DNA of 36,771 nucleotides from the NCBI GenBank assembly GCA_003220315.1, contig QHSA01000148.1, forward strand, positions 1-36,771, given 5' to 3'. Shown in pieces: positions 11,097 through 25,431 of the stretch. The notes under the pieces are model-generated. The model was not told the origin of the DNA. It did not search any database and worked only from the letters and a program-made list of their open reading frames with translations. This DNA is from Candidatus Rokuibacteriota bacterium (GTDB lineage: Bacteria > Methylomirabilota > Methylomirabilia > Rokubacteriales > CSP1-6). The position numbers and the translations under genes are program-made. Every line of letters begins with the position of its first letter. Positions within the stretch are counted from its first letter, which is position 1.

Positions 11097-12152
11097 ATGT
11101 CGCTGGCCGACCCCGGGCTTGACGCGGATGCGATCGAGGAGCTCTACGCGCGCGGGGTCACCGACGGCCTGCCCGTGGTGCCGCCGACCCGTGGGCGCGT
11201 CGAGCGCACGATCGCCGCGTCGGGCCGCGGGCCCGACGAGCTGATCGGGCTCGTCCCGCCGAACTACGGCCGCGCCACCGTCGAGAAGATCGCGGTCAAC
11301 GCCGTCATGGCCGGCTGCCGGCCCGAGTATCTGCCCGTCGTGCTCGCCGCCGTGGAGGCGGTGTGCGACGACGCGTTCGATCTCCACGGCGTCTCGGCGA
11401 CGACGAACGCCCCCGCCCCGCTCGTGATCGTCAACGGCCCCCTCCGCGGCGAGCTCGACATCAACTGCGGCGCTGGCGTCTTCGGCTCCGGCTGGCGCGC
11501 CAACGCGACCATCGGACGCGCGCTCCGGCTCGTCTGCGTGAACGTCGGCGGCGCCCGGCCGGGCGAGGTCAGCATGTCCACGCTCGCTCACCCGGGCCGC
11601 TACACTTACTGCATCGGCGAGCGCGAGGAGGCGAGTCCCTGGGAGTCGCTCGCCGTCGAACACGGGTTCGCCCCGGGGGACTCGACGGTCGCCGTCCTCG
11701 CCGCCGACGCGCCCCTCGGCGTCTACGATCAGCGGTCCCGGACGCCGGAGGACCTGCTGGCGACGCTCGCGGCGAGCCTGGCCGTCGTCGCCCACCACAA
11801 GATGACGCACTGGGGGGACACGCTGCTCGTCCTCTCGCCCGAGCACGTGAGGATCCCGGGTGACGCGGGCTGGACGAAGGCCGAGGTTCGCCGCTGGCTC
11901 TGGGAGCGGCTCCAGCGCCCGGTCCGCGAGTTGCTCCCGGGCCGGGACGGGGGCGAGGGGCTCCCCGAGCACGTGCTCCGGAAATTCCCCGACCCCGCGC
12001 GCGACGACTCGCCGATCGCGAAATTCCGGTCGCCCGACAACATCAAGATCCTCGTGGCCGGTGGGACGGCGGGCCGGTTCTCGGCCATCGTCCCCGGCTG
12101 GACCTTCTCGAAGGGCTCGGCGCTCGTGTTTCGGCCCATTCGCACGCCGTAA
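11097..12152 (+). CDS. Conserved protein of unknown function, probable partner of the UGSC selenoprotein
   Basis: A 351-residue soluble protein with no signal peptide or membrane helix and no catalytic signature I can name. Distinct blocks are VTDGLPVVPPTRGRVERT near the start, GGCRPEYLP-like AGCRPEYLPVVLAAVEAV, NGPLRGELDINCGAGVFG, HPGRYTYCIGEREEASPWESL, SPEHVRIPGDAGWTKAEVR and a C-terminal VAGGTAGRFSAIVPGW. From memory, proteins with these blocks occur beside or joined to UGSC-family proteins. Here the selenoprotein gene starts 15 bases after its stop, so the two should be made together. ATG 11097 has no strong ribosome site and lies six bases after a TAGCCT that could be a -10 element, so it may be nearly leaderless. 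Function is open. Confidence 0.7.
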   Translation: MSLADPGLDADAIEELYARGVTDGLPVVPPTRGRVERTIAASGRGPDELIGLVPPNYGRATVEKIAVNAVMAGCRPEYLPVVLAAVEAVCDDAFDLHGVSATTNAPAPLVIVNGPLRGELDINCGAGVFGSGWRANATIGRALRLVCVNVGGARPGEVSMSTLAHPGRYTYCIGEREEASPWESLAVEHGFAPGDSTVAVLAADAPLGVYDQRSRTPEDLLATLAASLAVVAHHKMTHWGDTLLVLSPEHVRIPGDAGWTKAEVRRWLWERLQRPVRELLPGRDGGEGLPEHVLRKFPDPARDDSPIAKFRSPDNIKILVAGGTAGRFSAIVPGWTFSKGSALVFRPIRTP

Positions 12153-12167
12153 TCGGGAGGAAGACCC

Positions 12168-12686
12168 ATGAGCGAGTATCTGGACCCGACCGCGCCGGTC
12201 GCCGTGCCACGGAAGACCGCGCGCCGCCCGTCGAGCCTCGACGGCCTGGTCGTCACGCTGCTCGACATCTCGAAGGCGAAGGGCGACCACCTCCTCGACC
12301 GGATCGAGGAGCTCCTGCGCGAGCGCGCGCGCCCGAAGGCGATCGTGAGGAAGAAGAAGCCGACCTTTGCGCGCCCGGCGCCCGAGCCCCTGCGCGCGGA
12401 GATCGTCGGCGGGACCGGCGTCCTGATCGAGGCGCTCGCCGACTGAGGGTCGTGCACCACGTGCAGTGTGCACGACGGCGTGTTCTTCGAGGACCACGGT
12501 ATCCCGACCGCGACGGTGGTCTCGACCGAGTTCGTCCGCGCGGCCCGCGCCCAGGCCGAGGCGCTCGGAGCGCACGACTATCGGACGGTCGTCGTCCCGC
12601 ACCCGATCCAGCCGCTGACGCGTGACGAAGTGAGGGCGCTGGCCGACAAGGCGTTCGACGAGATCGTGAGGAGGCTCACGGCGTGA
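12168..12686 (+). CDS. UGSC-family selenoprotein with in-frame TGA (Sec93)
   Basis: One gene of 172 residues if TGA 12444-12446 is read as selenocysteine. The first part (VVTLLDISKAKGDHLLDRIEELL) and the Pro/Ala linker run straight into ALAD-U-GSCTTCSVHDGVFFED, then GIPTATVVSTEF and a C-terminal HPIQPLTRDEVRALADKAFDE block. The same frame stays open on both sides of the TGA to the TGA at 12684-12686. In family members that use cysteine, as I recall them, the position before GSC is Cys; the U-G-x-C-T-x-C pattern also resembles the active site of glycine-reductase-type GrdB. Redox chemistry at U93/C96/C99 is therefore likely, substrate unknown. GGGAGG lies before the ATG. A hairpin follows the TGA directly. 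Standard gene calling gives two short genes (12168-12446 and 12468-12686). The alternative is a nonsense mutation; the intact second half and the hairpin speak against it. Confidence 0.87.
12447..12476 (+). promoter_or_regulatory. Candidate bacterial SECIS hairpin
   Basis: Directly behind the in-frame TGA is a perfect 9-bp inverted repeat, GTCGTGCAC (12449-12457) with GTGCACGAC (12468-12476), enclosing 10 bases. A competing fold pairs CGTGCA (12460-12465) with TGCACG (12469-12474) around a GTG triloop whose first G is 20 bases after the TGA. Bacterial SECIS elements are hairpins at about this distance with a G at the start of a small loop, so the second fold fits the rule better while the first is longer. 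Either would be the SelB docking site within the coding sequence. Confidence 0.65.
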
Positions 12687-13582
12687 CGACCACGGACAAA
12701 CGCTGGTACCTGTTCGACGTCAATCCCTCCACGCCGCCGGCCTTCGAGGTGGCGTCGGGCGAGGCGTTCACCCTCGAGGTGCGCGGGGCATTTTCAGACA
12801 TCGCAGACATCAGCACGGTCCCGACGCCGTTCACGCCGGCGTGCGACGGCCACCCGCTCGCGCCCATCGCCGGACCCGTGCGCATTCGCGGCGCCCGGCC
12901 CGGCGACGCCGTCGTCGTCGACCTGCTCGAGATCACGCCGCACGGCGAGGGCAAGACGGCGATCCTCCGAGACTTCGGCGTGCTCCGGCGGGAGTTCGGG
13001 GAGCCGTGGGCGCTCGCGTGTCCCGTGAAGGACGGCCGCGCCTGGTTCGGCGGCCGCATCCCGATCGCGCTCAACCCGAATCTGGGAACGGTCTCCACGA
13101 TGCCGACGGAGGGCTACAAGCCCGCGTACGCCGGGCCCTACGGCGGGGACTTCGACCAGAAGGACGTGCGCGCCGGGAGCCGCGTCCACCTGCCGGTGAT
13201 GGTGGACGGCGCGCTGCTGTTCTTCGCCGACCCGCACGCCGCGATCAGCGACGGGATCATCACGGGCACGGGCGTCGAGTGCGACGCCACGGTCCGCGCC
13301 CGCGTGGAGCTCGAGAAGGGACGGAAGCTCGACCGCCCGATCCTCGAGGTGGACGACACCGTGCAGGTCCTCGGCTTCGGCCCGACGGTCGAGCTCGCCA
13401 CCGAGGACGCCGCGCGTGGCGCCGTCGAATGGTTCGTCGGGCGCACGGGCATGGACCGCCGCGAGGCGTACATGCTGCTCTCGATCGTCGGCGAGCTGCG
13501 GATCGGCACCTCGCCGCGCCCCGTCATGGCGGCGCGGCTCATCATCCCGCGGTACGTGATCGACGCCGCGGCCCGGGCGTGA
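12683..13582 (+). CDS. Acetamidase/formamidase family protein
   Basis: A 299-residue cytoplasmic enzyme of the FmdA/AmdA family. Visible blocks are the early VASGEAFTLEVRGAFSD, NPVTGPV-like PIAGPVRIRGARPGDAVVVDLLEI, NPNLGTVSTMP, GGDFDQKDVRAGSRVHLPVMVDGALLFFADPHAAISDGIITGTGVE (the family core with HAAxGDGE-like residues) and a C-terminal LLSIVGELRIG. Known members hydrolyse formamide, acetamide or related small amides to the acid and ammonia. GTG 12683 overlaps the selenoprotein stop by four bases (GTGA), which ties the two in translation. In this operon it may remove an amide made from an N-containing substrate, but that is inference. Confidence 0.85.
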   Translation: MTTTDKRWYLFDVNPSTPPAFEVASGEAFTLEVRGAFSDIADISTVPTPFTPACDGHPLAPIAGPVRIRGARPGDAVVVDLLEITPHGEGKTAILRDFGVLRREFGEPWALACPVKDGRAWFGGRIPIALNPNLGTVSTMPTEGYKPAYAGPYGGDFDQKDVRAGSRVHLPVMVDGALLFFADPHAAISDGIITGTGVECDATVRARVELEKGRKLDRPILEVDDTVQVLGFGPTVELATEDAARGAVEWFVGRTGMDRREAYMLLSIVGELRIGTSPRPVMAARLIIPRYVIDAAARA

Positions 13583-13587
13583 GCCCC

Positions 13588-14382
13588 ATGCTGGTCGGCG
13601 CCTTCGCGTGCGCGCACACGCCCCAGCTCCTGGCCCGACCCGAGACCGAGGACCGCGAGCTCGTGCTGCGCGTGCACGCCGCGTTCGCGCGGGTCAAGCG
13701 GCGGCTCGAGGCGCTCCGGCCGGACGCGATCGCCATGATCGCGGGGGACCACATCGAGGCGTTCTTCCTGAGCGCGGTGCCCGCGCTCGCCGTCTACGTG
13801 GGGACGGAGTGCGCGGGGACGTTCGGGCGCTACCGGTACCGGTTCCCGATCCACGAGCCGCTCGCCCGCGCCCTCGTCGAGGCGGGGATCGAGCGGGGGT
13901 TCGATCTCGTCTACACGCAGGACGCGCCGCTCGACTACGCCTTCTACGTGCCGCTCCACTTCACGATGCCGGAGCCGTCCGTCCCCCTCGTCCCACTCCA
14001 CGTCAACGTCTACCTGCCGCCCCAGCCGACGCCCAAGCGCTGCTACGAGTGGGGACGGGCCCTCGGCGAGATTCTGGGATCGCGCTCGGAGCGGGTGGTC
14101 CTCATGGCCTCGGGCGGCATGTCCCACTTCCCGGGGACGGACCGCTACGCGTCGCCGGAGTTCGACTACGACCGGCGGCTGCTGGACCTCTTGAGCGCGG
14201 GGCGGAGCCGAGAGCTGGCCGCGGTCACGGCCGAGGAGCTGGACCGTGCCGGCAACATCGAGCTGCGGACGTGGATCACGTTGCTCGGCGCGGTCGGCGA
14301 CGCGAAGGCCGACGTCTACTGCTACGAGCCGTCGTGGCATCACGGCAACGCGGTCGTGGAGTGGCCGCTAGCAGTAACCTAG
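13588..14382 (+). CDS. LigB-type class III extradiol ring-cleavage dioxygenase, catalytic subunit
   Basis: A 264-residue LigB-superfamily catalytic subunit. The likely non-haem Fe(II) ligands are His10 (FACAHTP), His55 (AGDHIEAFF) and Glu225 (GNIELRTW), and His180 (SGGMSHFPG) is the likely acid/base, matching the arrangement known for LigB. It should insert O2 next to a phenolic hydroxyl and open an aromatic ring; whether the substrate is a protocatechuate, gallate or aminophenol type cannot be read from the sequence. ATG 13588 gives the usual start (MLVGAFACAHTPQLL); GTG 13579, overlapping the previous stop, is the alternative. The LigA-type subunit begins directly after its stop, which makes a two-subunit enzyme very likely. 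Confidence 0.85.
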   Translation: MLVGAFACAHTPQLLARPETEDRELVLRVHAAFARVKRRLEALRPDAIAMIAGDHIEAFFLSAVPALAVYVGTECAGTFGRYRYRFPIHEPLARALVEAGIERGFDLVYTQDAPLDYAFYVPLHFTMPEPSVPLVPLHVNVYLPPQPTPKRCYEWGRALGEILGSRSERVVLMASGGMSHFPGTDRYASPEFDYDRRLLDLLSAGRSRELAAVTAEELDRAGNIELRTWITLLGAVGDAKADVYCYEPSWHHGNAVVEWPLAVT

Positions 14383-14652
14383 ATGGTCCACTACCGGTTC
14401 CCGCCCGCCTCGGCCTATCGCCTGAACCGCTGCCTCTTCGCGCTGAAGTCGGACGACGCGTTTCGCTCGCGGTTCCGGGCGGACGCGCGCGCGGCGATGC
14501 GCGAGATGGGGCTCGACGACGCGGATGCGGCGGCGCTCCTCCGCGGCGAGCGCGACGCGCTCGTCGCGCGGGGCGCGCATCCCTACCTCGTCTTCATGGC
14601 GGACCTCAGGCTCCGGATGGAGCGGGAGGCGGTGACGTTCGAGTACTTCTAG
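14383..14652 (+). CDS. LigA-type small subunit of extradiol dioxygenase
   Basis: An 89-residue helical protein like the LigA (alpha) subunit of protocatechuate 4,5-dioxygenase. Typical features are SAYRLNRCLFALKSDDAFRSRF near the start, a Met-Gly-Leu turn (MREMGLDDADAAALLRGE) and a closing GAHPYLVFMADLRLRME. In LigAB enzymes this subunit caps the active site of the catalytic subunit. The ATG follows the LigB-type stop with no gap, so the two proteins are probably made in equal amounts. No catalytic residues are expected in it. Confidence 0.82.
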   Translation: MVHYRFPPASAYRLNRCLFALKSDDAFRSRFRADARAAMREMGLDDADAAALLRGERDALVARGAHPYLVFMADLRLRMEREAVTFEYF

Positions 14653-14689
14653 CCCGGACCCGGCTTGGGGTCCCGCGAGGAGGACACCC

Positions 14690-15637
14690 GTGGCGACGAC
14701 CCTGACCGAGAGCGACGTGGTCAAGATGATCTCGAGCCTCAGCAACTGGGGCCGCTGGGGGCAGGACGACGAGCTGGGGACGATCAACCTCATCACGCCG
14801 GAGAAGCGGAAGCGCGCGGCGGCGCTCGTGAAGGACGGCGTCCCGGTGAGCTGCGCGCGGCCGATCGCGACCAACGCGATCGGCGCCGACACGACGTTCC
14901 AACCCCTGCGCTTCATGGTCGACTCGGGCGAGGGGCGCGATCACGACTCGCCCGCGCGACTCCTGGAGCGGCGCGGCGCCTCCGAGTTCATCGGCATGGT
15001 CTTCCACGGCTACACGATCACCCACGTCGACACGCCGGCGCACTATTTCTGGCAGGGGAAGATCTACAACGGGCGCTCGGCCAACCTGATCACCTCGCGC
15101 GAGGGCGCGCGCGTCGAGTCGGTGGACCTGCTGCGCGACGGCGTCGTGAGCCGTGGCGTGCTCCTCGACGTCGCGGCGCTCCGGGGACGCTGGCTCGGGT
15201 CGGGCGAGGGCGTGATGCCGGAGGACCTCGAGGCCGCGGAGCGGGCGCAGAACCTTCGCGTCGAGGCGGGCGACATTCTGCTGATCCGGACCGGGTACTA
15301 CGCGCGGCGGCTCGCCGAGGGACCGCGCCATCCCCTGAAGGACGGCTCGCCTGCGACGCACGTCGCGTGCATGCCGTGGCTCCGCGAGCGTGACGTCGCC
15401 ATGCTCGGCAGCGACACCCACAACGACGTGAGTCCCGCCACCCATCCCGGTCTCGGCAACGTCGTGCACATCGTCGGGCTCGTCGGTCTGGGGCTCTGGC
15501 TCATCGACAACGCCAACCTCGAGGAGCTGGCGAAGGCGTGCGCGGCGCGGCGACGGTGGGAGTTCATGCTGACGATCGCGCCGCTCAGGCTCGAGGGCGT
15601 GACCGGCTCGCCCGTGAACCCGATCGCGCTCTTCTGA
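14690..15637 (+). CDS. Cyclase-family protein (kynurenine formamidase-like hydrolase)
   Basis: A 315-residue member of the cyclase/kynurenine-formamidase fold. It has NWGRWGQDDELGTINLITPEKR near the start (very typical of the long subgroup), the metal-binding HGYTITHVDTPAHYFW block (variant of H-x-GTH-x-D-x-P-x-H), GDILLIRTGYY and a SDTHNDVSP block. Members hydrolyse amides or lactones by a metal-bound water; the exact substrate is unknown. GTG 14690 is preceded by AGGAGGA at a good distance. It is 37 bases behind the LigA-type gene and is the last gene of the plus-strand run, so it may act on the ring-cleavage product. Confidence 0.85.
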   Translation: MATTLTESDVVKMISSLSNWGRWGQDDELGTINLITPEKRKRAAALVKDGVPVSCARPIATNAIGADTTFQPLRFMVDSGEGRDHDSPARLLERRGASEFIGMVFHGYTITHVDTPAHYFWQGKIYNGRSANLITSREGARVESVDLLRDGVVSRGVLLDVAALRGRWLGSGEGVMPEDLEAAERAQNLRVEAGDILLIRTGYYARRLAEGPRHPLKDGSPATHVACMPWLRERDVAMLGSDTHNDVSPATHPGLGNVVHIVGLVGLGLWLIDNANLEELAKACAARRRWEFMLTIAPLRLEGVTGSPVNPIALF

Positions 15638-15699: not shown

Positions 15700-16704
15700 C
15701 TAGGAGAACTTCGGCAGCACCTTCGTGCCGAGGAGACGGATCGAGCGCAGCACTTGTTCCTGGCCCATGCCGGGCCACTGCAGGCGGAAGATCAGCGTCG
15801 TCACGCCCAGCCGATCGCGGTAGCGGGCGATCTCGTCCGCGACCCGGGCCGGGTCGCCGATCAGGAAGCGGTCGCGCGCCAGCTCCGCGAAGCTCGCGTC
15901 GAAGCTCTCGCCGGCCGGGAGCGCCTTGTCCTGCTCCCAGCGGCGGTACGCGCGGTACTTGGCGTCGAGGAACGCCGCGGCTTCCGCGAGCGCCGTGGAC
16001 GACTCCGGCGCGACATAGCACTCCTTGATGAGCGGCGTCTCGGTCGCCGCGGGGCGACGGAGCTCGGCTCGCGTCCGCCTGAAGAGGGCGAGCTGACGCT
16101 CGAGCGTCGGGAGCGTGGCGTGGGGGTTCATCAGCCAGGTGTCCCCGAGGCGCGCCGCGCGCCGGACGCCGGCGTCGGCGTTCGCCGCGAGCCAGACGGG
16201 TGGGCGCGGCTGCTGCAGCGGGCGCATCGAAATCCGCACCTCCCGCAGGCGGAAGTGCGTGCCGTGGTAGGTGACGGGCTCGCCGTTCCACAGCCGCTCG
16301 ATCACCTCGAGGCCCTCCACCAGGCGGCCGACACGCTCCTTCGGATTCAGGCCCATCGCCTCGTTCTCGACGTCGCGATAGCCGAGGCCGACGCCGAAGA
16401 CGAAGCGCCCCGCCGTGATCACGTCGAGCGTCGCGAGCTGCTCGGCGATCTCGACGGGATGGTGGAGCGGCAGGAGCAGGCACCCCGTCCCGAGCGTCAT
16501 GCCGGGGGCCTCGGCGGCGACGCGGGCGAGCGTCGGGATCGGCTGGAAGTAGGTGAACGGGTCGGAGAGATAGTGCTGGCTCGCCCAGACCGAGGTGAAC
16601 CCCACGGCACGCGCGAGCCGGACCTGCTCGACGTGCTCCTGGAAGCGGGCCGCTTGCGAGTCCTCCGGCAGGTGCTGGACCGAGAGCCCGATGCCGAACT
16701 TCAT
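15700..16704 (-). CDS. LLM class flavin-dependent oxidoreductase
   Basis: A 334-residue TIM-barrel flavoenzyme of the bacterial luciferase-like family. The start MKFGIGLSVQHLPEDS, the VGFTSVWASQHYLSDPFTYFQPIPTLARVAAE block, GTGCLLLPLHHPVEIAEQLATLDVITAGRF and FGVGLGYRDVENEAMGL are the classical barrel strands and cofactor contacts of this family. Such enzymes use reduced FMN or F420 to oxidise diverse substrates, often in catabolism. It lies 27 bases downstream of the VWA gene on the same strand, so it shares that transcript. The substrate cannot be inferred; nearness to the LigAB operon (converging, separate transcript) hints at a role in the same catabolism but does not show it. Confidence 0.88.
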   Translation of the reverse strand: MKFGIGLSVQHLPEDSQAARFQEHVEQVRLARAVGFTSVWASQHYLSDPFTYFQPIPTLARVAAEAPGMTLGTGCLLLPLHHPVEIAEQLATLDVITAGRFVFGVGLGYRDVENEAMGLNPKERVGRLVEGLEVIERLWNGEPVTYHGTHFRLREVRISMRPLQQPRPPVWLAANADAGVRRAARLGDTWLMNPHATLPTLERQLALFRRTRAELRRPAATETPLIKECYVAPESSTALAEAAAFLDAKYRAYRRWEQDKALPAGESFDASFAELARDRFLIGDPARVADEIARYRDRLGVTTLIFRLQWPGMGQEQVLRSIRLLGTKVLPKFS

Positions 16705-16731
16705 GCCCGCGGCTCCCGCGCCCCCACGGGG

Positions 16732-18120
16732 TCAGGCGAGCCCACGAACGAAGTCGCCGAGCTGGCGAAGGTTGCGGACCTCGAAGACACCGTCGCAGTA
16801 GGGCGCGTACGCGGCGACGATCGAGTCCGTCGTGTTCCACTCCCGCCGTCGCTCCGGATTCAACCAGTACACCCGGCGCGCGCGTTCCTTGATCGCGCGA
16901 AGGGCGTCGAGCCCCGGGCGGCGGTAGTTGTTGCGCGCATCGCCGGTCACGAGGACCGTGGTCCGCGGTCCCAGGGCGCCGCGTCCGTAGACGTCCCAGA
17001 ACGTGCCGAACACGCTCCCGTAGTCGCTGTGGCCGTCCGCCCGCACGACGCTGGCGCGCGCCAGGAGGTGGCGGACGTCCAGGCGGTGCGCGCTCTCCTC
17101 GAGCAGCGCGGTCACCTCGTCGATCCCGTCGACGAACGCGAAGGACCGGATTCGCGGGAACTCGTCGCTCATCGCGTAGAGGAGCGACAGGGTGAACTGG
17201 GCGAATTCCGCGACCGAGCCGGAGACATCGCACAGCAGATAGAGATCCGGCTTGGACACTCGCGGATACCTGAAGGCGGGCTCGAGCGGCACGCCGCCAG
17301 CGGACAGCGAGCGGCGGATGGTCCGGCGCGCGTCGAGCCGGCCGTGCCGGCGGAGGCGGCGCCGGTGCGCGACCCGGGCGGCGAGCTTCCGTGCGAGCGG
17401 TCGGATCGCATTCCGCATCTCCCGGAGCTCGGTCGGGCTGGCGCCGAGGAAGTCGACGTCCTCGATCGGCGGCTCGGCGGCGGCGAATCCCTTGAGCTCG
17501 AGCAGGCGGTGGCGGATCTCGTCGGCGATCAACCGGCGGAACGCCTCGATGCGGTGGCGGTGCTCGTCCTGAAGCAGGCGGTCGCCGAGGCGCCGCGCGT
17601 CGGCGCCTGTCCCGCCCCCGTCGCGCATGGCCCGTTGCATGAGGTTGGACAGGTCGAGCTGCCGGAGGACCCGGTAGAGGTAGTACTGCACGGATCCGTC
17701 TCGCTGGACGTCGAGCCCCCCGAACCGCTGGACGGCCAGCGCGGCGATCGCCCGCAAGGCGCCCGCGTCGTTTCGTCGCAGCGCTTCGAGGAGAGCCGCG
17801 AGCAGATCCTCCGAGCCGCCTTCGCCGACGGCGGCCTCGGTGAGGTCGGCGGGGAGCGGGGGGGACAGCGTCGCAGGCGCGCCGGCCGGCCGGGACACCT
17901 CGGCTCGGCGCGGGACGAAGGAGATGTCGAACAGGGCCGCGAAGGGCGCGCGATGCTCCGCCCGCTTCACGAGCACGGCCGCCAGAGCCGCCTTGAGCTC
18001 GGCGCGGCTCCCCAGGTCGATGTGTCGAAGCGCGTGCGCAGCGTCGAGCGCCTCGACCATCGAGATCGGAATCGCCGCGTTTCGCAGACGATGGATGAAC
18101 TCGATCAAGGCGGTCAGCAT
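16732..18120 (-). CDS. VWA domain-containing CoxE-like protein (second copy)
   Basis: A 462-residue protein with the same plan as the one at 405-1814: a helical N-terminus (MLTALIEFIHRLRNAAIPISMVEALDAAHAL), a variable Ala/Pro-rich middle, the RRTIRRSLSAGGVPLEPAF block and a VWA domain with the MIDAS DVSGS starting at residue 298 and VLVTGDARNNYRRPGLDAL later. The usual MoxR ATPase partner is not next to it; the nearest full-length one is at 25437-26309 on the other strand. ATG 18118-18120 is the first start of the conserved N-terminus. A promoter-like pair (TTGGCC, 17 bases, TAGACT) lies just upstream. Confidence 0.87.
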   Translation of the reverse strand: MLTALIEFIHRLRNAAIPISMVEALDAAHALRHIDLGSRAELKAALAAVLVKRAEHRAPFAALFDISFVPRRAEVSRPAGAPATLSPPLPADLTEAAVGEGGSEDLLAALLEALRRNDAGALRAIAALAVQRFGGLDVQRDGSVQYYLYRVLRQLDLSNLMQRAMRDGGGTGADARRLGDRLLQDEHRHRIEAFRRLIADEIRHRLLELKGFAAAEPPIEDVDFLGASPTELREMRNAIRPLARKLAARVAHRRRLRRHGRLDARRTIRRSLSAGGVPLEPAFRYPRVSKPDLYLLCDVSGSVAEFAQFTLSLLYAMSDEFPRIRSFAFVDGIDEVTALLEESAHRLDVRHLLARASVVRADGHSDYGSVFGTFWDVYGRGALGPRTTVLVTGDARNNYRRPGLDALRAIKERARRVYWLNPERRREWNTTDSIVAAYAPYCDGVFEVRNLRQLGDFVRGLA

Positions 18121-18151
18121 CGCGCCGCGCAGGTCCTCCAGGTTGGGGTAG

Positions 18152-18180
18152 AGTCTAACGCGTGAGCCGATTCAGGCCAA
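18152..18180 (-). promoter_or_regulatory. Possible sigma70-type promoter for the VWA gene
   Basis: On the minus strand TTGGCC (18180-18175) and TAGACT (18157-18152) are 17 bases apart. Each matches four of six consensus bases. The expected start point lies about 25 bases before the VWA ATG. The elements overlap the start of the divergent LLM gene, so the two genes may be controlled together. Confidence 0.4.
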
Positions 18181-19040
18181 CCGTCGCGCCCCCGGGCCGG
18201 CTCGCCCGTCTCAGCCTGGTTCTCGACACGCGAGACGCGCCGAGCCGGCTGCGCGAGGTGGCGAGGATGTGCGACCGCGCGGGGGTCGACGCCCTCTGGG
18301 TCGCCGACCGCGCTCCCCGGCTCGACGCGTGGACGGCCCTCGTCCTCGCGGCGCTCGACACGTCTCGGGCCAGGTTGGGGGCGATGCTGGAGCCGACGTT
18401 CAGGCCCCCGACGGTGCTGGCGGCGATGGCGCGGACCCTCGATGCCGCGGCGGGAGGGCGCCTCGAGCTCGGCCTCGCGAGCGATCGCGTGGAAGGCACG
18501 GAGGAGTACGCCCGAGCCCTCCGCGACCTTCTCGCCGGAGGGCCGCCGCTGTCGATCGCGATCGCGGGACCGCGGGAGATCGGCGTGGCCGTGCGCTTGG
18601 CCGACGACGTCGTGATTCCGGCGTCCGCGCTCGGGGACGTCCGCGGACTGATCGGGGCGATTCGCGCGGGCTGCGAGGCGGCGGGCCGGGATCCCGCCAG
18701 CCTCGGGATCGCCGTGGACGTCCCGGTGTCGATCGGGCGCACCTCCGCCGAGGCCCACGCCCGGGCGAGTCACGACCCGCGCTTCCCCGACATCGGCCAT
18801 CCCGCCACACGCGGGATCTTCGGGACGCTCGAGCAGTGCCAGGACCGCGCCATCGAGCTCGCGCACCTGGGCGTCACCGACCTCCGGTGCCTCCTGCCGA
18901 ACACTCCCGACGTGCACGATGCGATCGCGCAGCTCACGGCCGTGGTGGTGGGCACGGTCGACGTGCTGACCCCGAACTCGCCCCGCTCGAAGGCGCCCGA
19001 TCCGCCCGAGGGGTGGGGGGGCCGACCGGTCCGGCGCTGA
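18162..19040 (+). CDS. LLM class flavin-dependent oxidoreductase (second, divergent type)
   Basis: A 292-residue luciferase-like protein, shorter than usual for the family. Blocks seen are LSLVLDTRDAPSRLREVARMCDRAGVDALWVADR, MLEPTFRPPTVLAAMARTLDAAAGGRLELGLAS and GIFGTLEQCQDRAIELAHLGVTDLRCLLP near the end. It resembles F420/FMN-dependent LLM enzymes but the middle is shortened, so activity is less certain than for the protein at 15700-16704. GTG 18162 begins shortly after TAGAGT (18149-18154), so its mRNA could be nearly leaderless. It is transcribed away from the VWA gene and ends about 20 bases before the promoter of the dioxygenase operon. Confidence 0.75.
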   Translation: MSRFRPTVAPPGRLARLSLVLDTRDAPSRLREVARMCDRAGVDALWVADRAPRLDAWTALVLAALDTSRARLGAMLEPTFRPPTVLAAMARTLDAAAGGRLELGLASDRVEGTEEYARALRDLLAGGPPLSIAIAGPREIGVAVRLADDVVIPASALGDVRGLIGAIRAGCEAAGRDPASLGIAVDVPVSIGRTSAEAHARASHDPRFPDIGHPATRGIFGTLEQCQDRAIELAHLGVTDLRCLLPNTPDVHDAIAQLTAVVVGTVDVLTPNSPRSKAPDPPEGWGGRPVRR

Positions 19041-19062
19041 GCCAACGACGGGATTTTTGTTA

Positions 19063-19092
19063 TTGACATGAGCTCGCGGCAGTCCGTATATC
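19063..19092 (+). promoter_or_regulatory. Sigma70-type promoter of the hydroquinone-dioxygenase/ABC operon
   Basis: TTGACA (19063-19068), a perfect -35, and TATATC (19087-19092) are 18 bases apart; reading the -10 one base earlier gives 17. They lie in a locally AT-richer stretch in an otherwise very GC-rich sequence. The predicted start point is about 19099, leaving a leader of some 34 bases that contains the GGAGGT site before ATG 19133. Confidence 0.7.
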
Positions 19093-19132
19093 GAGCATGC
19101 CCGACACCTGGCCGCGACGGGGAGGTTCTGCG

Positions 19133-19633
19133 ATGACCAAGTACGTCACCCGCTTCGGATCGCTCGAGCACTACGCAAAGGGCGGCGTGGAGATCATCGA
19201 CGACGATCCCAAGCGTTACACCTTCTCCAACATGTTCGAGGTGGCCGCGCGGTCGAAGCCCTACGAAAAGGTGGCGGTCGGGAAGAACATGCAGTACGTG
19301 CTCGAAGTCCTCAGGGCCGAGGGGACCTCCGAATGGCGCGCGGCCGCGCACGACGAGTTCGCCCTCGTCATGGACGGCGAGGTCGAGGTCCGGCTGCTCA
19401 AGCTCGCCGATCCCTCGGTGGTTCCGCCGGGCAAGGAAGGGTCCATTCGCCTCCGCGCCGAGCCGACGGGGCGGAAGATGGGACTCGTCCGGGCCCGCCG
19501 TGGGCATCTGACGCTGCTCCCCGCGGGGGCCGCCTACCAGTTCCATGCCGATCGGCCCGGCGTGATTCTGCTGCAGACGATCGCCGGGGACGACACGCAG
19601 TATCGCTGGGCCGAGATCTGCCAGACGATGTGA
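19133..19633 (+). CDS. Hydroquinone 1,2-dioxygenase-like small subunit (cupin)
   Basis: A 166-residue cupin-fold protein. It starts TKYVTRFGSLEHYAKGGVEIIDDDPKRYTFSNMFEVA and holds a cupin core (AAHDEFALVMDGEVEVRLLKL, then GHLTLLPAGAAYQFHADRPGVILLQTI). Size and pairing with the next gene match the small (about 18 kDa) subunit of the two-component Fe(II) hydroquinone dioxygenases PnpC/HapC, which open hydroquinone to 4-hydroxymuconic semialdehyde. ATG 19133 is chosen because GGAGGT (19121-19126) is six bases upstream; ATG 19097 would precede that site. The assignment rests on recalled family features and on the gene pair, so a related dihydroxy-aromatic substrate is possible. Confidence 0.68.
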   Translation: MTKYVTRFGSLEHYAKGGVEIIDDDPKRYTFSNMFEVAARSKPYEKVAVGKNMQYVLEVLRAEGTSEWRAAAHDEFALVMDGEVEVRLLKLADPSVVPPGKEGSIRLRAEPTGRKMGLVRARRGHLTLLPAGAAYQFHADRPGVILLQTIAGDDTQYRWAEICQTM

Positions 19634-19685
19634 GGGGCGTCGGGGCGCACGGCCGTCACGCCGCACGCACAAGGAGAGACGCGCG

Positions 19686-20669
19686 ATGAGCGTCCAGACT
19701 CTTGACGTCAAGTCGAGTGGGCCGAACGAGCACGGGTATCGGAGCTTTTCCCTCGGGGAGGTCACCTTCAGCCGCGACGAGTACTTCGTCTACGTCAAGT
19801 GGCCGACGGGCCGGCACGTCATGTCCGCCGACGCGTTCCTCCGGAGCCTCCAGCGCGATGTGGCGTGGGAGTTCTTCTACGGCATCGTGAACTTCGACGG
19901 CGTCATCGGGACGGTCAACCACTACGGCACGGTCGACCTCTTCGCCGGCCGGTACAACGACGCCTACCGGAAGGCCGAGCTGGACCACGTCGAGAACTTT
20001 CCCACGCCGCGCATCAAGGGGACGTTCGCCGCCATGCTCGACGACTGGACGAGCGCGACCTTCGACCCCTTCGCCAGCCCTCACGAGACCGGGACGGCGT
20101 TCGGCCCGAAGGCCGGCAGCAACACCGCGGCCGTCACGCGGCGGCGGGTCACCGCGAAGCGGATGGTGGGTGTGCCGGGGGACGAGCCGCTCCGATCCGA
20201 CGCCACCGGGCATCCGATCAACCGCCACTTCCTCGACGTGCCGCAGGACGAGCCCACGATCCTCGCCGAGCCGGGGTTCGAGGGACAGGTGTGCGCCTTC
20301 AGCCTGTTCGCGTATCTGTCCCGCTCGAACGTGACGTGGAACCCCTCGGTCGTCTCCGTGTGCAAGAACAGCCTCTACTGTCCGACCACCGAGGAGTACA
20401 TCCTTCCCATCATCCACGGAAACGACCGGGTGGAGTGGTTCGTGCAACTCAGCGACGAGATCTACTGGGACGTCGAGGACCGCGACACGGGCGCCGTTCG
20501 CGCGAAGGTGGTGATGAAGCCCGGGGATGTCGCGGCGATGCCGGCGGACATCCGCCACCAGGGCTACTCACCCAAGCGCGCGATGCTGCTCGTGTGGGAG
20601 AACGGGTCGCCCGATATTCCGGCGCTCATCGCGTCGGGGAAGGCGCCGACGAACCCGGTGAGCTTCTGA
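19686..20669 (+). CDS. Hydroquinone 1,2-dioxygenase-like large subunit (cupin)
   Basis: A 327-residue protein, close to the length of PnpD/HapD large subunits. It begins with a SFSLGEVTFSRDEYFVYVKWPTGRHVMSADAFLRSLQRD block, has a long middle part with GKA-type loops, and ends with a cupin-like barrel (VEWFVQLSDEIYWDVEDRDTGAVRAKVVMKPGDVAAMPADIRHQGYSPKRAMLLVWENG) in which the GDVAAMPADIRHQG strand carries a metal-ligand-like His. An AAGGAG site lies before the ATG, 52 bases after the small-subunit stop. With the small subunit it should form a heterotetrameric ring-cleaving dioxygenase acting in the cytoplasm. Downstream are all parts of an ABC importer, so the substrate or a precursor is probably taken up by it. 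Confidence 0.68.
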   Translation: MSVQTLDVKSSGPNEHGYRSFSLGEVTFSRDEYFVYVKWPTGRHVMSADAFLRSLQRDVAWEFFYGIVNFDGVIGTVNHYGTVDLFAGRYNDAYRKAELDHVENFPTPRIKGTFAAMLDDWTSATFDPFASPHETGTAFGPKAGSNTAAVTRRRVTAKRMVGVPGDEPLRSDATGHPINRHFLDVPQDEPTILAEPGFEGQVCAFSLFAYLSRSNVTWNPSVVSVCKNSLYCPTTEEYILPIIHGNDRVEWFVQLSDEIYWDVEDRDTGAVRAKVVMKPGDVAAMPADIRHQGYSPKRAMLLVWENGSPDIPALIASGKAPTNPVSF

Positions 20670-20709
20670 GCTGATCGGGATGCCCCGCCAGACCCAGGGA
20701 AAGGACGCC

Positions 20710-22020
20710 ATGCCGGACGCGACGGCGAGCGACGCGGAGCGGTTGGTGCCGCGCACAGGAACACGACGGCGGTTCATCAAGGGTGGCGCGGCCGCGGTCG
20801 CCGGTCTGGGCGCGCTGCGTGCCGGGCCCGCGCGCGGCGCAGAGCGCGAGATCAAGATCGGCTACGTCAGCCCGCGGACGGGCCCGCTCGCCGGCTTCGG
20901 CGAGGCCGACGAGTTCATCCTCGCTGGCCTCGAGCAGGCGTTCAAGGACGGAGTCGCGATCGGCGGCAAGCGACATCCGATCAAACTCCTGGTCAAGGAC
21001 AGCCAGTCGAACCCGAACCGCGCCGCCGAGGTGGCGTCCGACCTCATCCTGAACGGGAAGATCGACCTGATGCTCGTGGCGTCGACGCCCGAGACGACGA
21101 ATCCGGTGGCGGACCAGTGCGAGCTGAACGAGATGCCGTGCGTCTCGTCGATCGCGCCGTGGCAGCCGTGGTTCTTCGGGCGCGGCGGCGACCCCGCGAA
21201 GGGGTTCAAGTGGACCTACCACTTCTTCTGGGGCCTCGAGGACATCATCGGCGTCTTCACCGATCTGTGGCAAACGGTGCCGACCAACAAGAAGGTCGGG
21301 GCGCTGTGGCCCAACGATGGCGACGGGCGCGCCTGGGGCGACCCCGAGCGCGGCTTCGCCCCGGCGCTCAAGAAGCTCGGCTTCGAGATGGTGGATCCGG
21401 GCTTCTTCAAGCCGCTCCTCGACGATTTCTCCGCGCAGATCACGGCGTTCAAGAACGCCAAGGTCGAGATCGTGACGGGCGTGCTGATTCCGCCCGACTT
21501 CACGACCTTTTGGACCCAGGCGCGCCAGCAGGGCTTCCGGCCGAAGGCGGTGACCGTCGGCAAGGCGCTGCTCTTTCCACGCTCGGTCGAGGCCCTCGGC
21601 GCCATCGGCGAGGGGCTCACCACCGAGGTGTGGTGGTCGCCGAACCATCCCTTCAAGTCATCGCTGACCGGGGCCTCCGCGCGCGACCTCGCCGCCGCGT
21701 ACACGAACGCGACGAAGAAGCAGTGGACGCAGCCCATGGGCTTCATCCATGCGCTGTTCGAGGTCGCCTTCGACGCCCTCTCGCGCTCGGGCAAGGCGGG
21801 CGACCGCGAGGCGCTCCGTGAAGCCATCAAGGCGACCACCAAGAAGACGATCGTGGGCGACATCAGCTGGGCGAAGGGACCGGTCGGGAACGTGGCCAAG
21901 ACGCCGCTGGTCGGCGGGCAGTGGGGGAAAGGCAAACAGTTCGCCTACGACCTGACCATCGTCAACAACAAGCGGGCGCCCTTCATCCCGACGAGCGGCA
22001 CGCTGCGGGGGATGGTGTAG
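20710..22020 (+). CDS. Branched-chain-amino-acid-type ABC transporter substrate-binding protein
   Basis: A 436-residue periplasmic binding protein of the Leu/Ile/Val type I fold. The N-terminus has a Tat signal (TRRRFIKGGAAAVAGLGAL, with twin Arg, Phe, Ile, Lys), then IKIGYVSPRTGPLAGFGEAD, the usual first strand and ligand loop. A DLMLVASTPETTNPVADQCE block and a VGALWPNDGDGRAWGD block follow. Many members of this family bind aromatic acids or amides rather than amino acids, and the dioxygenase next door favours that here. ATG 20710 is preceded by AAGGA; ATG 20680 is an alternative that lengthens the region before the twin-Arg motif. Genes for the ATPases and permeases follow directly. Confidence 0.88.
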   Translation: MPDATASDAERLVPRTGTRRRFIKGGAAAVAGLGALRAGPARGAEREIKIGYVSPRTGPLAGFGEADEFILAGLEQAFKDGVAIGGKRHPIKLLVKDSQSNPNRAAEVASDLILNGKIDLMLVASTPETTNPVADQCELNEMPCVSSIAPWQPWFFGRGGDPAKGFKWTYHFFWGLEDIIGVFTDLWQTVPTNKKVGALWPNDGDGRAWGDPERGFAPALKKLGFEMVDPGFFKPLLDDFSAQITAFKNAKVEIVTGVLIPPDFTTFWTQARQQGFRPKAVTVGKALLFPRSVEALGAIGEGLTTEVWWSPNHPFKSSLTGASARDLAAAYTNATKKQWTQPMGFIHALFEVAFDALSRSGKAGDREALREAIKATTKKTIVGDISWAKGPVGNVAKTPLVGGQWGKGKQFAYDLTIVNNKRAPFIPTSGTLRGMV

Positions 22021-22023
22021 CCG

Positions 22024-22776
22024 GTGACGGGCGGCGCCGCGGCGGCGAAGCCGCTGCTCCGGCTCGAGGGCGTCTCCAAGGCGTACGGCGCGCTGCTGGT
22101 GACCGACGACCTCACGTTCGAGGTCGGCGACGGTGAGAGGCTCGGCGTCGGCGTGATCGGACCGAACGGCGCCGGCAAGACGACCCTGTTCAACCTCATC
22201 ACGGGGGACGTGACACCGGACCGGGGCCGGATCTACTTCGGCGGGGCCGACATCACGGCGCGGCGGCCCTACGATCGCTGCGCCGCCGGGATCGCGCGCA
22301 CCTATCAGATCCCGCTGCCGTTCGTCGGGATGACCGTGTTCGAGAACGTCCTGGTCGGGGCCACCTTCGGTCGAGGTCAGTCGGAGCGCGATTCGCACGA
22401 TGTGAGCATCGCGGTCATGCGGCGCACCGGGCTCGCCCGGAAGGCCAACACCTTCGCGGCATCCCTGACGCTGCTCGAGCGCAAGCGCCTGGAGCTGGCG
22501 CGGGCGCTCGCGACGGGCCCCCGCCTCCTCCTTCTCGACGAGATCGCGGGCGGGCTGACGGAGCACGAAGTGGCGGAGCTGGTCGCCACCATCCGGGAGA
22601 TCCGCGCCGAGGGCGTGACGATCGTCTGGATCGAGCACATCGTCCACGCGCTGATGACGGCGGTCGATCGGCTGCTCGTCATCCACCTCGGGCGCCGTCT
22701 GGCCGACGGGAACCCGAGGGAAGTCATGACGAGCTCCGAGGTGCGCAAAGTCTACATGGGGATCGACGTCACATGA
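22024..22776 (+). CDS. LivG-type ABC transporter ATP-binding protein
   Basis: A 250-residue ATPase of the LivG group. Walker A is GPNGAGKTT, the Q-loop segment is TYQIPLPFVGMTVFENV, the signature region is SLTLLERKRLELARAL (LivG proteins often depart from LSGGQ here), Walker B is LLLLDEIAGGLTEHEV and the switch is IVWIEHIVHAL. In the strand before Walker A the sequence reads ERLGVGVIGPNG, with an extra Gly-Val against the usual pattern; in DNA this is a direct GGCGTC/GGCGTG doubling. GTG 22024 is three bases after the binding-protein stop. It drives the LivH/LivM permease together with LivF. Confidence 0.9.
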   Translation: MTGGAAAAKPLLRLEGVSKAYGALLVTDDLTFEVGDGERLGVGVIGPNGAGKTTLFNLITGDVTPDRGRIYFGGADITARRPYDRCAAGIARTYQIPLPFVGMTVFENVLVGATFGRGQSERDSHDVSIAVMRRTGLARKANTFAASLTLLERKRLELARALATGPRLLLLDEIAGGLTEHEVAELVATIREIRAEGVTIVWIEHIVHALMTAVDRLLVIHLGRRLADGNPREVMTSSEVRKVYMGIDVT

Positions 22777-22795
22777 GCCCGTGGAGGCGGGCGCG

Positions 22796-23494
22796 GTGAG
22801 CCTGCTGTCGGTCCATGAGCTCACCGCCTTCTACGGCGACTTCCAGGCGCTCTTCGGCGTCACGCTCGACGTGGAGCCGGGCGAGGTCGTGGCCATCATC
22901 GGCGCGAACGGCGCCGGCAAATCGACCTTCCTACGGAGCGTGGTCGGGCTCTGCGCCAGCGCGGCGAAGGCGGCGCTTTTCGACGGCCGGCCCATCGGCG
23001 GCCGGCCGACCCACGAGATCGTCACGCTGGGCATCGCGCTCGTGCCAGAGGGTCGGCGCATCTTCCCCAGCCTGACGGTGGAGGAGAATCTCTTGATCGG
23101 GGGACATCGCGCGCGCCCGGGCCCATGGTCGCTGGCGCGCGTGTACGACCTGTTCCCGATGTTGTACGAGCGCCGGGCGATGAGCGGCCCGGCGCTCTCC
23201 GGTGGCCAGCAGCAGATGCTGGCGATCGGCCGAGCGCTGATGGCCAACCCGCGGCTGCTGCTGCTCGACGAGGTGTCGCTCGGTCTCGCGCCGATCGTCG
23301 TCAACGACGTCTACACGAGGCTGTCCACGATCGTCGGCGAGGGAACGACCACACTGTTCGTGGAGCAGGATGTCGGCCGGGCCCTCAGCGTGTGCCACCG
23401 CGTGTACTGCTTTCAGGAGGGCCGGATCGCGCTCGCAGGCTCGCCGCGCGATCTCACGCGTGCGCAGATTGCCGCCGCCTATTTTGGAGTCTGA
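22796..23494 (+). CDS. LivF-type ABC transporter ATP-binding protein
   Basis: A 232-residue ATPase of the LivF group. It has the short start SLLSVHELTAFYGDFQALFGV, Walker A GANGAGKST, the LivF-typical VPEGRRIFPSLTVEENL Q-loop region, signature LSGGQQQMLAIGRALM, Walker B LLLLDEVSLGLAP and a final IAAAYFGV. GTG 22796 is preferred because GGAGG (22783-22787) is eight bases upstream; an in-frame GTG at 22781 would add five residues and overlap that site. All catalytic motifs are intact. It follows LivG by 19 bases in the same operon. Confidence 0.92.
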   Translation: MSLLSVHELTAFYGDFQALFGVTLDVEPGEVVAIIGANGAGKSTFLRSVVGLCASAAKAALFDGRPIGGRPTHEIVTLGIALVPEGRRIFPSLTVEENLLIGGHRARPGPWSLARVYDLFPMLYERRAMSGPALSGGQQQMLAIGRALMANPRLLLLDEVSLGLAPIVVNDVYTRLSTIVGEGTTTLFVEQDVGRALSVCHRVYCFQEGRIALAGSPRDLTRAQIAAAYFGV

Positions 23495-23497
23495 GCC

Positions 23498-24370
23498 ATG
23501 GACTGGATGAACGCCGTGATCCAGGGGGTGCTGCTCGGCGGACTGTACGCCCTCTTCGCGGCCGGGCTCTCTCTGGTCTTCGGCATCATGCGGGTCGTCA
23601 ACCTGGCGCATGGGGACTTCATCATCCTGGCGGCGTTCCTCAGCGTCGTCGTGGTCGGCGTGACGGGTCTCGGCCCCTTCCTGAGCCTCGTGATCGTGGT
23701 GCCGCTGATGGGCGGGCTCGGCTATGCTGTGCAACGCGGGCTGCTGGCCCGGACGCTGGATCGGGGCGTCCTGCCACCCCTGCTCGTCACGTTCGGTCTC
23801 TCGGTCATCATCCAGAACCTCCTGCTGCAGATCTTCTCGGCGGACGACCGGCGCCTGGACGCGGGTGGCATCTCCACCGCCAGCATCGGCATCGCCGGGC
23901 AGCTCGCCATCGGGTGGTTTCCTGTGGTCGTCTTCCTCGCCGGTGTGCTGGCGATCGCGGGGCTACAAATTCTCTTCACGCGGACGGCGCTCGGCCGCGC
24001 GTTCCGGGCGACGGCCGACGACCAGGAGACCGTGCGTCTCATGGGTATCGACAACCGTCACACCTACGGGCTGGCGGTCGCGATCGCGTTCGGGATCGTC
24101 GCCCTCGCCGGAGTGTGCCTCGGGATCCGGACGACGTTCTCTCCGGACATCGGTCCGGGCCGCCTCCTCGTCGCGTTCGAGACGGTCGTCATCGGTGGTC
24201 TCGGATCGCTGTGGGGAACGCTGATGGGCGGCGTCATTCTCGGGATTGCGCACACGATCGGTGCCAAGCTCGATCCCGCCTACCGCGAGCTGACCGGGCA
24301 TCTCGTGTTCCTGCTGGTGCTGCTCGCGCGGCCGCAGGGGCTGTTCGCGAAGCCAGTGAGAGAGACGTGA
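23498..24370 (+). CDS. LivH-type ABC transporter permease
   Basis: A 290-residue inner-membrane permease with about eight TM helices. It starts with the family hallmark DWMNAVIQGVLLGGLYALFAAGLSLVFGIMRVVNLAHGDFIILAAF. The coupling loop is FRATADDQETVRLMGIDNRHTYGLA, and it closes with GGLGSLWGTLMGGVILGI and FLLVLLARPQGLF. All are standard in LivH. The ATG follows the LivF stop by three bases; the TGA overlaps the LivM GTG by four bases. Together with LivM it forms the channel for the ligand delivered by the Tat-exported binding protein. Confidence 0.94.
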   Translation: MDWMNAVIQGVLLGGLYALFAAGLSLVFGIMRVVNLAHGDFIILAAFLSVVVVGVTGLGPFLSLVIVVPLMGGLGYAVQRGLLARTLDRGVLPPLLVTFGLSVIIQNLLLQIFSADDRRLDAGGISTASIGIAGQLAIGWFPVVVFLAGVLAIAGLQILFTRTALGRAFRATADDQETVRLMGIDNRHTYGLAVAIAFGIVALAGVCLGIRTTFSPDIGPGRLLVAFETVVIGGLGSLWGTLMGGVILGIAHTIGAKLDPAYRELTGHLVFLLVLLARPQGLFAKPVRET

Positions 24371-25431
24371 CGGCCGCCGGCTACACGATCGAGCGCGGGA
24401 CGACGGCGAGTCGTCTGGGGGCGCGAGCGGGTGCGGTGCTGGTCGCGGCCCTCGTCGCGCTGCCGTTCTGGGGCAGTTCCGGCGACATGCGCCTCATGGT
24501 CGAGTTCCTGTCGATGCTCACGCTGGCGCAGATGTGGAATCTCCTCGCGGGCTACGGCGGCCTCGTGTCGGTCGGTCAGCAGGCTTACGTCGGGCTCGGC
24601 GGCTACGCGTTGATCGTCCTCGCGGACTTCCTCGACGTCAATCCGTTCGTCTCGGTCTTTCTCGCAGGGTTCGTGACGGCGGCATTCGCCCTGCCCACGG
24701 CGGCCGTGGTCTTCCGCTTCCAGGGTGGCTACTTCGCCGTCGGGACGTGGGTCGTGGCAGAGGTCTACTACCTGCTGGTCGCCAACAGCTCGGCGCTCGG
24801 CGGCGGCCTCGGCCGCTCGCTGCAGGCGATCCGAGGCATCGCCCGCGCCGAGCGGGAGCGGTTGACCTACTGGGTCGCGCTGGTGGTGGGGGTCGGAGCT
24901 GTCGCGCTCGTCTACGTCCTCCTCCGCTCTCGGCGTGGACTCGCGCTGACGGCGATCCGCGACAGCGCGCGAGCGTCCGAGAGCCTCGGCATCAACGTGT
25001 TTCGCAGCAAGCTGTTCGTCTACGTCGTGGCGGCGTTCGGCTGCGGCGTCGCCGGCGCCTTGATCTACCTCAACCTGCTCCGGATCCTGCCGACCGCGGC
25101 GTTCTCGGTGAACTGGACTGCCTCGATGATCTTCGTCGTCGTCATCGGCGGGATCGGGACGCTCGAGGGGCCCCTCGTCGGCACGACCGTGTACTTTGTC
25201 TTGCGCGAGTTCCTGGCCGACTACGGCGCCTGGTACCTCATCGTTCTCGGCGCCGTGGCGATCCTCGTCATGCTGTGGGCGCCCCAGGGGCTGTGGGGGC
25301 TCGTGACGGCGCGCTACGGCCTGCGCTTCTTCCCGGTGCAGCGGCGTGTGCGGTTCACCAACGAGGCGACCCGGAGCGACGCACGCAGGTCGGGCGGGGG
25401 CGACCGCGCACCGCTGGGAAGCCAAGCGTGA
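24367..25431 (+). CDS. LivM-type ABC transporter permease
   Basis: A 354-residue membrane permease with eight to ten TM helices. Hallmarks are LSMLTLAQMWNLLAGYGGLVSVGQQAYVGLGGYAL, FRFQGGYFAVGTWVVAE, the coupling loop LTAIRDSARASESLGINVFRSKL and the closing VIGGIGTLEGPLVGTTVYFVLREFLADYGAWYLI. The last 35 residues are charged and cytoplasmic. GTG 24367 overlaps the LivH stop (GTGA). Its own stop overlaps a GTG (25428) that could start the MoxR gene, so the ABC genes and the ATPase gene are in one transcript. Confidence 0.93.
   Translation: MTAAGYTIERGTTASRLGARAGAVLVAALVALPFWGSSGDMRLMVEFLSMLTLAQMWNLLAGYGGLVSVGQQAYVGLGGYALIVLADFLDVNPFVSVFLAGFVTAAFALPTAAVVFRFQGGYFAVGTWVVAEVYYLLVANSSALGGGLGRSLQAIRGIARAERERLTYWVALVVGVGAVALVYVLLRSRRGLALTAIRDSARASESLGINVFRSKLFVYVVAAFGCGVAGALIYLNLLRILPTAAFSVNWTASMIFVVVIGGIGTLEGPLVGTTVYFVLREFLADYGAWYLIVLGAVAILVMLWAPQGLWGLVTARYGLRFFPVQRRVRFTNEATRSDARRSGGGDRAPLGSQA

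Follow-up and report, generated by a model that had tools for sequence, protein, structure and literature searches.

A selenoprotein operon in Candidatus Rokuibacteriota

The window, that is, the whole stretch of DNA analysed here, comprises the 36,771 nucleotides (nt) of contig QHSA01000148.1 from a Candidatus Rokuibacteriota bacterium (assembly GCA_003220315.1). An open reading frame (ORF) listing and profile searches place six genes, all on the plus strand, at 11097-15637. The first two encode a 351-residue protein, hereafter the partner, and a selenoprotein of the UGSC family, which together may constitute a thioredoxin-fed reductase. The six genes, and the elements for insertion of selenocysteine (Sec), including a hairpin resembling a Sec insertion sequence (SECIS), are as follows.

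11097..12152, plus strand: partner subunit, 351 amino acids (aa); no named family; beside UGSC in most loci
12168..12686, plus strand: UGSC-family selenoprotein, 172 aa, with the motif ADUGSCTTC; PF24696 and NF041046 profiles
12444..12446, plus strand: in-frame UGA read as Sec93; the single in-frame TGA (codon 93), conserved in nearly all chromosomal relatives
12458..12476, plus strand: SECIS-like hairpin; apical stem 12460-12465 with 12469-12474, loop 12466-12468; covariation
12683..13582, plus strand: FmdA/AmdA-family hydrolase, 299 aa; PF03069, 75.5 bits
13588..14382, plus strand: LigB-type extradiol dioxygenase catalytic subunit; PF02900, 129 bits
14383..14652, plus strand: LigA-like small subunit, 89 aa; PF07746, 34.7 bits
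14690..15637, plus strand: cyclase/kynurenine-formamidase-type hydrolase; PF04199, 66 bits

Successive genes are spaced, in order, by 15 nt, a 4-nt overlap, 5 nt, 0 nt and 37 nt. A sequence-only reading of the window had described six tightly packed genes of these kinds, and both the coordinates and the family profiles agree with it. The selenoprotein scores above the curated cut-offs of both UGSC profiles (171 bits against 25 for PF24696 and 159 against 125 for NF041046) and carries the U/C-G-S-C motif of the family, and is thus a member by profile and motif. UGSC is abundant among the Sec families of the Global Ocean Sampling set, where a fusion to a protein termed 'Unknown_1' is described, and it ranks among the commonest selenoprotein families of aquatic metagenomes (PMC2398784); a 2026 review counts it among the families of largely uncharacterized function (PMC13188914). 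The accessible portions of the published work give the family a supposed thioredoxin fold and no assigned function, and name neither the partner, nor the likeness to GrdB, nor the thioredoxin reductase neighbours described below. Hence, the window protein belongs to a known selenoprotein family, and what is new, and testable, is a proposal for the function of that family.

The partner falls into no Pfam or NCBIfam family, the top match being DUF7525 at 14.4 bits, below the cut-off. Its closest named relative among the matches listed comes from a Candidatus Rokuibacteriota metagenome-assembled genome (80% identity), in keeping with a probable Rokubacteria origin of the window's genome, and its conserved features are a near-invariant Cys74 and the motifs D23-G24-x-P26, NGP and GR.

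The partner and UGSC form the conserved unit

Conservation was examined in 60 related genomes and in three sets of loci: 40 from relatives, 80 from named genomes (the best 80 of at least 557 relative-encoding stretches, among at least 592 candidates) and 21 from plasmids. Judging from record titles, the named loci cover Rokubacteria, Binatia, Chloroflexi, Acidobacteria, Poribacteria, Proteobacteria and Actinobacteria. Partner and UGSC genes were both present in the same 45 of the 60 relatives and both missing from the same 15, so that neither ever occurred alone. The 15 genomes without them are confined to three families of the class and are therefore not 15 independent events; one of these families (f8) has three genomes with both genes and two with neither. 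The two genes were adjacent (same strand, less than 600 nt apart by profile search, fused chains counted) in 33/40 relatives' loci, 67/80 named loci and 18/21 plasmid loci, with the partner preceding UGSC in 63 of the 67 adjacent named loci and 6 of the 18 adjacent plasmid loci. In the remaining 7, 13 and 3 loci, respectively, there was a contig edge, a UGSC gene farther away or on the opposite strand, or no UGSC within the stretch. The co-occurrence and adjacency counts reject chance adjacency of the two genes, and uphold the tie between the selenoprotein and its 351-residue partner that the sequence-only reading had drawn.

All 38 classified UGSC proteins of the relatives' loci were of the Sec type, whereas the named loci gave 73 Sec, one Cys and one partial form, and the plasmids 12 Cys, 4 Sec and two that were not classified automatically; the latter, both from Neorhizobium, carry HCSTC. 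The Cys form of the pair is also found in haloarchaea. Paralogs are numerous: one genome (G021) has as many as 12 matches for UGSC and 15 for the partner. In Variovorax boronicumulans a Cys-type UGSC and the partner form one chain of 545 aa with the motif intact, and a similar fusion with an intact motif, read less clearly, occurs in Neorhizobium. Since they are fused, partner and UGSC should act together. The conserved unit is the partner with UGSC, and the catabolic genes are later attachments.

Some loci depart from the simple pair. Two partner paralogs flank one or two UGSC genes at L064 (contig C231 of the window's own genome, G000), L208, L217, L214 and L221, and haloarchaeal plasmids are among the loci with such arrays. 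In four Poribacteria loci (L098, L106, L108 and L139) the partner match ends after about 780 nt and no UGSC lies nearby, reflecting either a divergent C-terminus or a different arrangement. An Arthrobacter UGSC (L212:8009-8824) has an added C-terminal domain, in which a CxxC resembles NifU by eye.

Selenocysteine insertion

Without read-through, the ORF listing splits the selenoprotein into 12168-12446 and 12468-12686. The UGA between the two parts is kept in 38/38 UGSC matches from the relatives' loci and 73/75 from the named loci, and the loop of the hairpin is located 20-22 bases 3' of it. Covariation of the hairpin was measured on 80 sequences, taken from 112 stretches after near-identical ones had been thinned by hand. 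Pairing was possible in 90.5% of the cells of an eight-pair stem; double changes affected 26 cells, compared with 4.0 in shuffles, and covariation scored 0.188, compared with 0.081. Shifting the stem partners lowered the score, and the closest value, at +2, was 0.125. Five inner pairs were standard in 80/80 sequences; the outer two failed in 27 and 22, and the innermost in 12. At the gathering threshold, Rfam matched nothing in the window.

The window's genome encodes SelA, SelB and tRNA-Sec together, on contig C281 rather than on the window contig, and contains four UGSC genes with one in-frame TGA each. Because the UGA is conserved in relatives, is followed by a covarying stem and occurs in a genome with SelA, SelB and tRNA-Sec, it is not the stop codon of a pseudogene; together with the UGSC profiles, these findings confirm that the gene encodes a selenoprotein, as the sequence-only reading had held.

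In 8/80 named loci (L101, L113, L123, L129, L131, L137, L141 and L153) SelA and SelB genes lie close to the pair, as if the Sec machinery travelled with it. A SelB gene is also present on a Paracoccus plasmid (L216).

Predicted fold and remote kinship to GrdB

The AlphaFold2 model of UGSC (pLDDT 93.8, 38 sequences) has an alternating beta-alpha fold, read by DSSP as E-H-E-H-E-H-E-H-E-H, with Sec93 predicted between strand 85-91 and helix 94-109. The thioredoxin fold runs beta-alpha-beta-alpha-beta-beta-alpha. Foldseek and VIA-align matched the model to common Rossmann-type folds, the best being a designed protein with Z 11.1, ahead of Z 10.8 (2.8 A over 127) for chain H of 8s7v; the thioredoxin fold was not among the matches, an absence that proves nothing. 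A sequence search of solved structures returned just chance matches for both UGSC and the partner.

The fold bears on the idea that UGSC serves generally as an antioxidant, an oxidoreductase for thiols or peroxides, with the partner as its protein target or scaffold. Such a role would suit the UxxC motif and the neighbouring thioredoxin reductase genes, and two publications group UGSC with thioredoxin-like selenoproteins, having a 'likely Trx-like fold' (PMC2398784, PMC13188914). However, the predicted order of strands and helices appears unlike that of thioredoxin, and the obligate single partner, the many paralogs per genome and the catabolic neighbourhoods suit a substrate enzyme better. 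We therefore consider this explanation quite unlikely.

UGSC was also compared with a profile of 12 GrdB proteins of relatives, translated through their UGA. Using hhalign, the similarity had P 2.7e-6 by default and 7.4e-7 at another setting, with Sec aligned on Sec; the best of 45 control families from the same loci gave P 0.0076 and a reversed GrdB control P 0.042. The stretch of UGSC after the motif was by itself similar to GrdB (P 1.6e-4) in an unchanged register. These alignments suggest that the Sec half of UGSC is a remote homolog of the Sec-bearing C-terminal part of the glycine reductase subunit GrdB. The Sec step, for which the sequence-only reading knew no place in a meta-cleavage route, thus does have a likeness elsewhere, in glycine reductase.

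Like GrdB (PF07355), UGSC carries a U-G-[ST] motif where the corresponding strand passes into a helix, and has a similar following stretch, a SECIS, a second obligate subunit and, for Cys-type pairs as judged by neighbourhood only, electrons from thioredoxin. Unlike GrdB, it has 172 rather than about 434 aa and lacks the large N-terminal part before Sec, its partner is not GrdE-like, its hosts are very wide, and on plasmids Cys often replaces Sec. Protein B (GrdB/GrdE) carries a pyruvoyl group formed from a Cys; in the partner, Cys74 is near-invariant. With the D-proline reductase PrdA/PrdB and PrdB-like short Sec proteins, UGSC shares a U-x-x-C motif, borne by a Sec protein that is small and has a larger companion. 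In profile comparison the partner resembles neither GrdB nor PrdB-like proteins.

A PF07355 search of the window's genome gave no match. The GrdB-like selenoproteins of relatives (L156, L158-L161) read UGTSTRC, with Ser at the Cys position of UxxC.

A putative thioredoxin-fed reductase

A TrxB-like gene lies within 2.5 kb of the pair in 9/21 plasmid loci. All nine have a Cys-type UGSC, namely 7 of the 12 called automatically and the two from Neorhizobium. The gene order is trxB-trxA-partner-UGSC on the Arthrobacter ERGS1:01 plasmid and partner-UGSC-trxB on that of Roseovarius THAF8; on the Variovorax SRS16 plasmid, trxB lies upstream of the pair with two genes between. Sec-type pairs, we infer, would draw on the host's own thioredoxin.

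We propose, with a probability that we put at roughly one half, that the partner and UGSC form a two-subunit, sometimes one-chain, thioredoxin-fed reductase working like GrdB. The partner would bind and activate a small carboxylate- or amide-type substrate. The selenolate of Sec93 would then attack the substrate held by the partner and reductively break a C-N or other C-X bond; Cys96 would resolve the seleno-intermediate to give an Se-S bridge, and thioredoxin, supplied by thioredoxin reductase, would reduce that bridge. Given the FmdA neighbour, our guess is that the enzyme of this operon would most probably break a C-N bond. The reductase nature of the pair, the bond broken and each catalytic step are inferred, the steps by analogy. 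The electrons of glycine reductase come from thioredoxin (PMC10298544), the Sec of such reductases is believed to attack a carbon of the substrate and give a selenoether that is cleaved by a thiol (PMC10298544, PMC3091704), and homologs of GrdB/GrdE are proposed to break the C-F bond of fluoroacetate via Sec attack (PMC10838667).

Several results weigh against this reading. When the motif was masked on both sides, the similarity to GrdB fell to P 0.006, in the same register and within the range of the best controls, and the half of UGSC before the motif showed no similarity (P 0.14); the motif therefore supplies much of the signal. The similarity is remote, PF24696 being the sole match of UGSC and PF07355 giving none at E<=1. 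The partner was rejected as a GrdE (no similarity, P 0.2 against 13 GrdE sequences), and UGSC as a PrdB-like protein, its profile similarity (P 0.0054) being about as weak as that of the best controls. The model of the partner (pLDDT 91.2, 41 sequences) found no convincing solved relative by Foldseek or VIA-align, and partner genes without a nearby UGSC exist. As to thioredoxin, the TrxB profile was built from five of the nine positive loci, some of which are closely related to each other; no TrxB neighbour was found at the 120 other loci, mostly of the Sec type, or at the four Sec-type plasmid loci, and the plasmid comparison of Cys with Sec types (7/12 vs 0/4) gives a Fisher P of 0.09. Finally, in Vibrio europaeus (L210:7377-9062) and Sporomusa termitida (L211:7347-9071) a UGSC-partner fusion chain, the N-terminal part of which resembles UGSC weakly (15.5 bits in Vibrio, by eye in Sporomusa), has the motif changed to MGTS, with both Sec and Cys lost. 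Redox activity is therefore not universal in the family, and this derived branch, whose genes adjoin aconitase X and DUF126, has apparently abandoned redox catalysis.

These fusions, which retain a partner part with an AGC motif, are what might be expected if the partner catalysed a non-redox reaction, as a lyase, hydrolase or isomerase, and UGSC tuned or protected it. There are also weak echoes in the partner model of Toblerone amide hydrolases and of fumarase and chorismate-mutase folds, but none of these matches reaches significance (best Foldseek E 2.8e-3, TM <0.3; highest Z 6.8). Moreover, Sec or Cys is retained in nearly all unfused copies, while drift would be expected of a lone regulator, and we regard this possibility, too, as quite unlikely.

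Returning to the reductase, we would more tentatively extend the proposal to a new and very widespread class of two-subunit Sec/Cys reductases of free-living bacteria and haloarchaea. These would carry out the GrdB half-reaction on an unrelated second subunit, in which the near-invariant Cys74 could be the activating residue, would have been duplicated into many specificities per genome, and would be plugged into catabolic operons, here one for an amide-bearing aromatic. The fixed partner, the remote link to glycine reductase and the connection to thioredoxin reductase make UGSC a testable enzyme; if the proposal is true, reductive bond cleavage by Sec extends from anaerobic Stickland-type metabolism to many soil, marine and salt-lake microbes.

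Catabolic genes as attachments

The FmdA-like protein has the acetamidase 2ii1 as its nearest solved chain (128 bits). Both LigB and LigA score above the cut-offs of their profiles, and belong with the type II extradiol dioxygenases (LigAB, gallate dioxygenase, MhpB). The nearest solved structures to LigB are 8k04, a 2,3-dihydroxyphenylpropionate dioxygenase, and gallate dioxygenase, and its His residues in CAHTP, GDHIEAF and GGMSHF align with the latter; extradiol dioxygenases of this kind use His and Glu for metal binding and catalysis, roles for which these His residues are candidates. For the PF04199 cyclase the nearest solved structure is 5ibz, which is uncharacterized.

Orthologs were counted in the 60 relatives at identities of at least 80% for FmdA, at least 70% for LigB and at least 72%, or 91% for a fragment, for the cyclase. 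Ten relatives have a whole FmdA ortholog and in all ten it adjoins the pair, which rejects chance adjacency; an FmdA end fragment in G003 is consistent with this linkage, and four weaker matches (48-50% identity) lie in three genomes on other contigs. LigB orthologs occur in 24 relatives, in 12 beside the pair, in about eight genera, in one (G003) split from it by contig ends, and in 11 elsewhere, always with LigA and without the pair's ortholog. Cyclase orthologs occur in 16, of which five are beside the pair, one is again split in G003 and ten are elsewhere. Orthologous pairs without LigAB are common, and pairs across phyla adjoin other genes. For LigAB and the cyclase, the adjacency may be due to chance. 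By these counts the pair is firmly linked in this lineage to amide hydrolysis, and only loosely to ring cleavage: FmdA genuinely belongs with the pair here, LigAB often accompanies it and the cyclase does so occasionally. LigAB is linked to the pair in only part of one genome family. The pair of this lineage would first have acquired an FmdA-type amide hydrolase and later, in some genera, LigAB and the PF04199 hydrolase, to give a catabolic operon.

The sequence-only reading had inferred breakdown of an N-containing or amide-bearing aromatic compound. In its full form, all six genes would make one pathway, in which amide splitting falls to FmdA and the cyclase, ring opening to LigAB and one reductive step to the Sec pair. 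The tight operon in this genus, the invariable FmdA linkage, the presence of LigB beside the pair in 12-13 of 24 genomes, and the oxidoreductase, dioxygenase and transporter genes downstream (see below) speak for it. Against it, LigB-LigA and the cyclase often lie apart from the pair, which itself frequently lacks LigAB and has other neighbours across phyla; we think a single pathway unlikely. The pathway reading is partly supported: FmdA and LigAB accompany the pair in several genera, for FmdA not by chance and for LigAB probably not, as the context of one lineage rather than the pair's general role. The counter-case given with the sequence-only reading, that the pair alone is conserved, holds in part, because partner and UGSC occur in different phyla with none of LigAB, FmdA and the cyclase nearby.

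In G009, one of the 11 relatives with LigB elsewhere, LigB-LigA lies about 3 kb from another partner-UGSC pair, which is 43% identical.

Neighbouring genes

Immediately 3' of the operon are an LLM oxidoreductase gene on the minus strand (15700-16704) and a CoxE-like vWA gene. A second ring-cleavage cluster at 18162-20669 comprises an LLM-type gene, a 178-aa ORF that matches no Pfam family and a gene resembling the hydroquinone 1,2-dioxygenase large subunit (19686-20669; PF18191, 179 bits); beyond it lies a branched-chain-type ABC transporter. The hydroquinone-dioxygenase-like genes span 19097-20669 and strengthen the aromatic context; the whole LLM, dioxygenase and transporter stretch covers 15700-25431, and a relative (G002, locus L036) keeps a similar gene order. 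Among relatives, MoxR-CoxE-DUF3047 upstream (CoxE and DUF3047 from profile searches, the first gene being presumably MoxR) and ChsH2-like and thiolase genes downstream recur, which looks like synteny rather than function.

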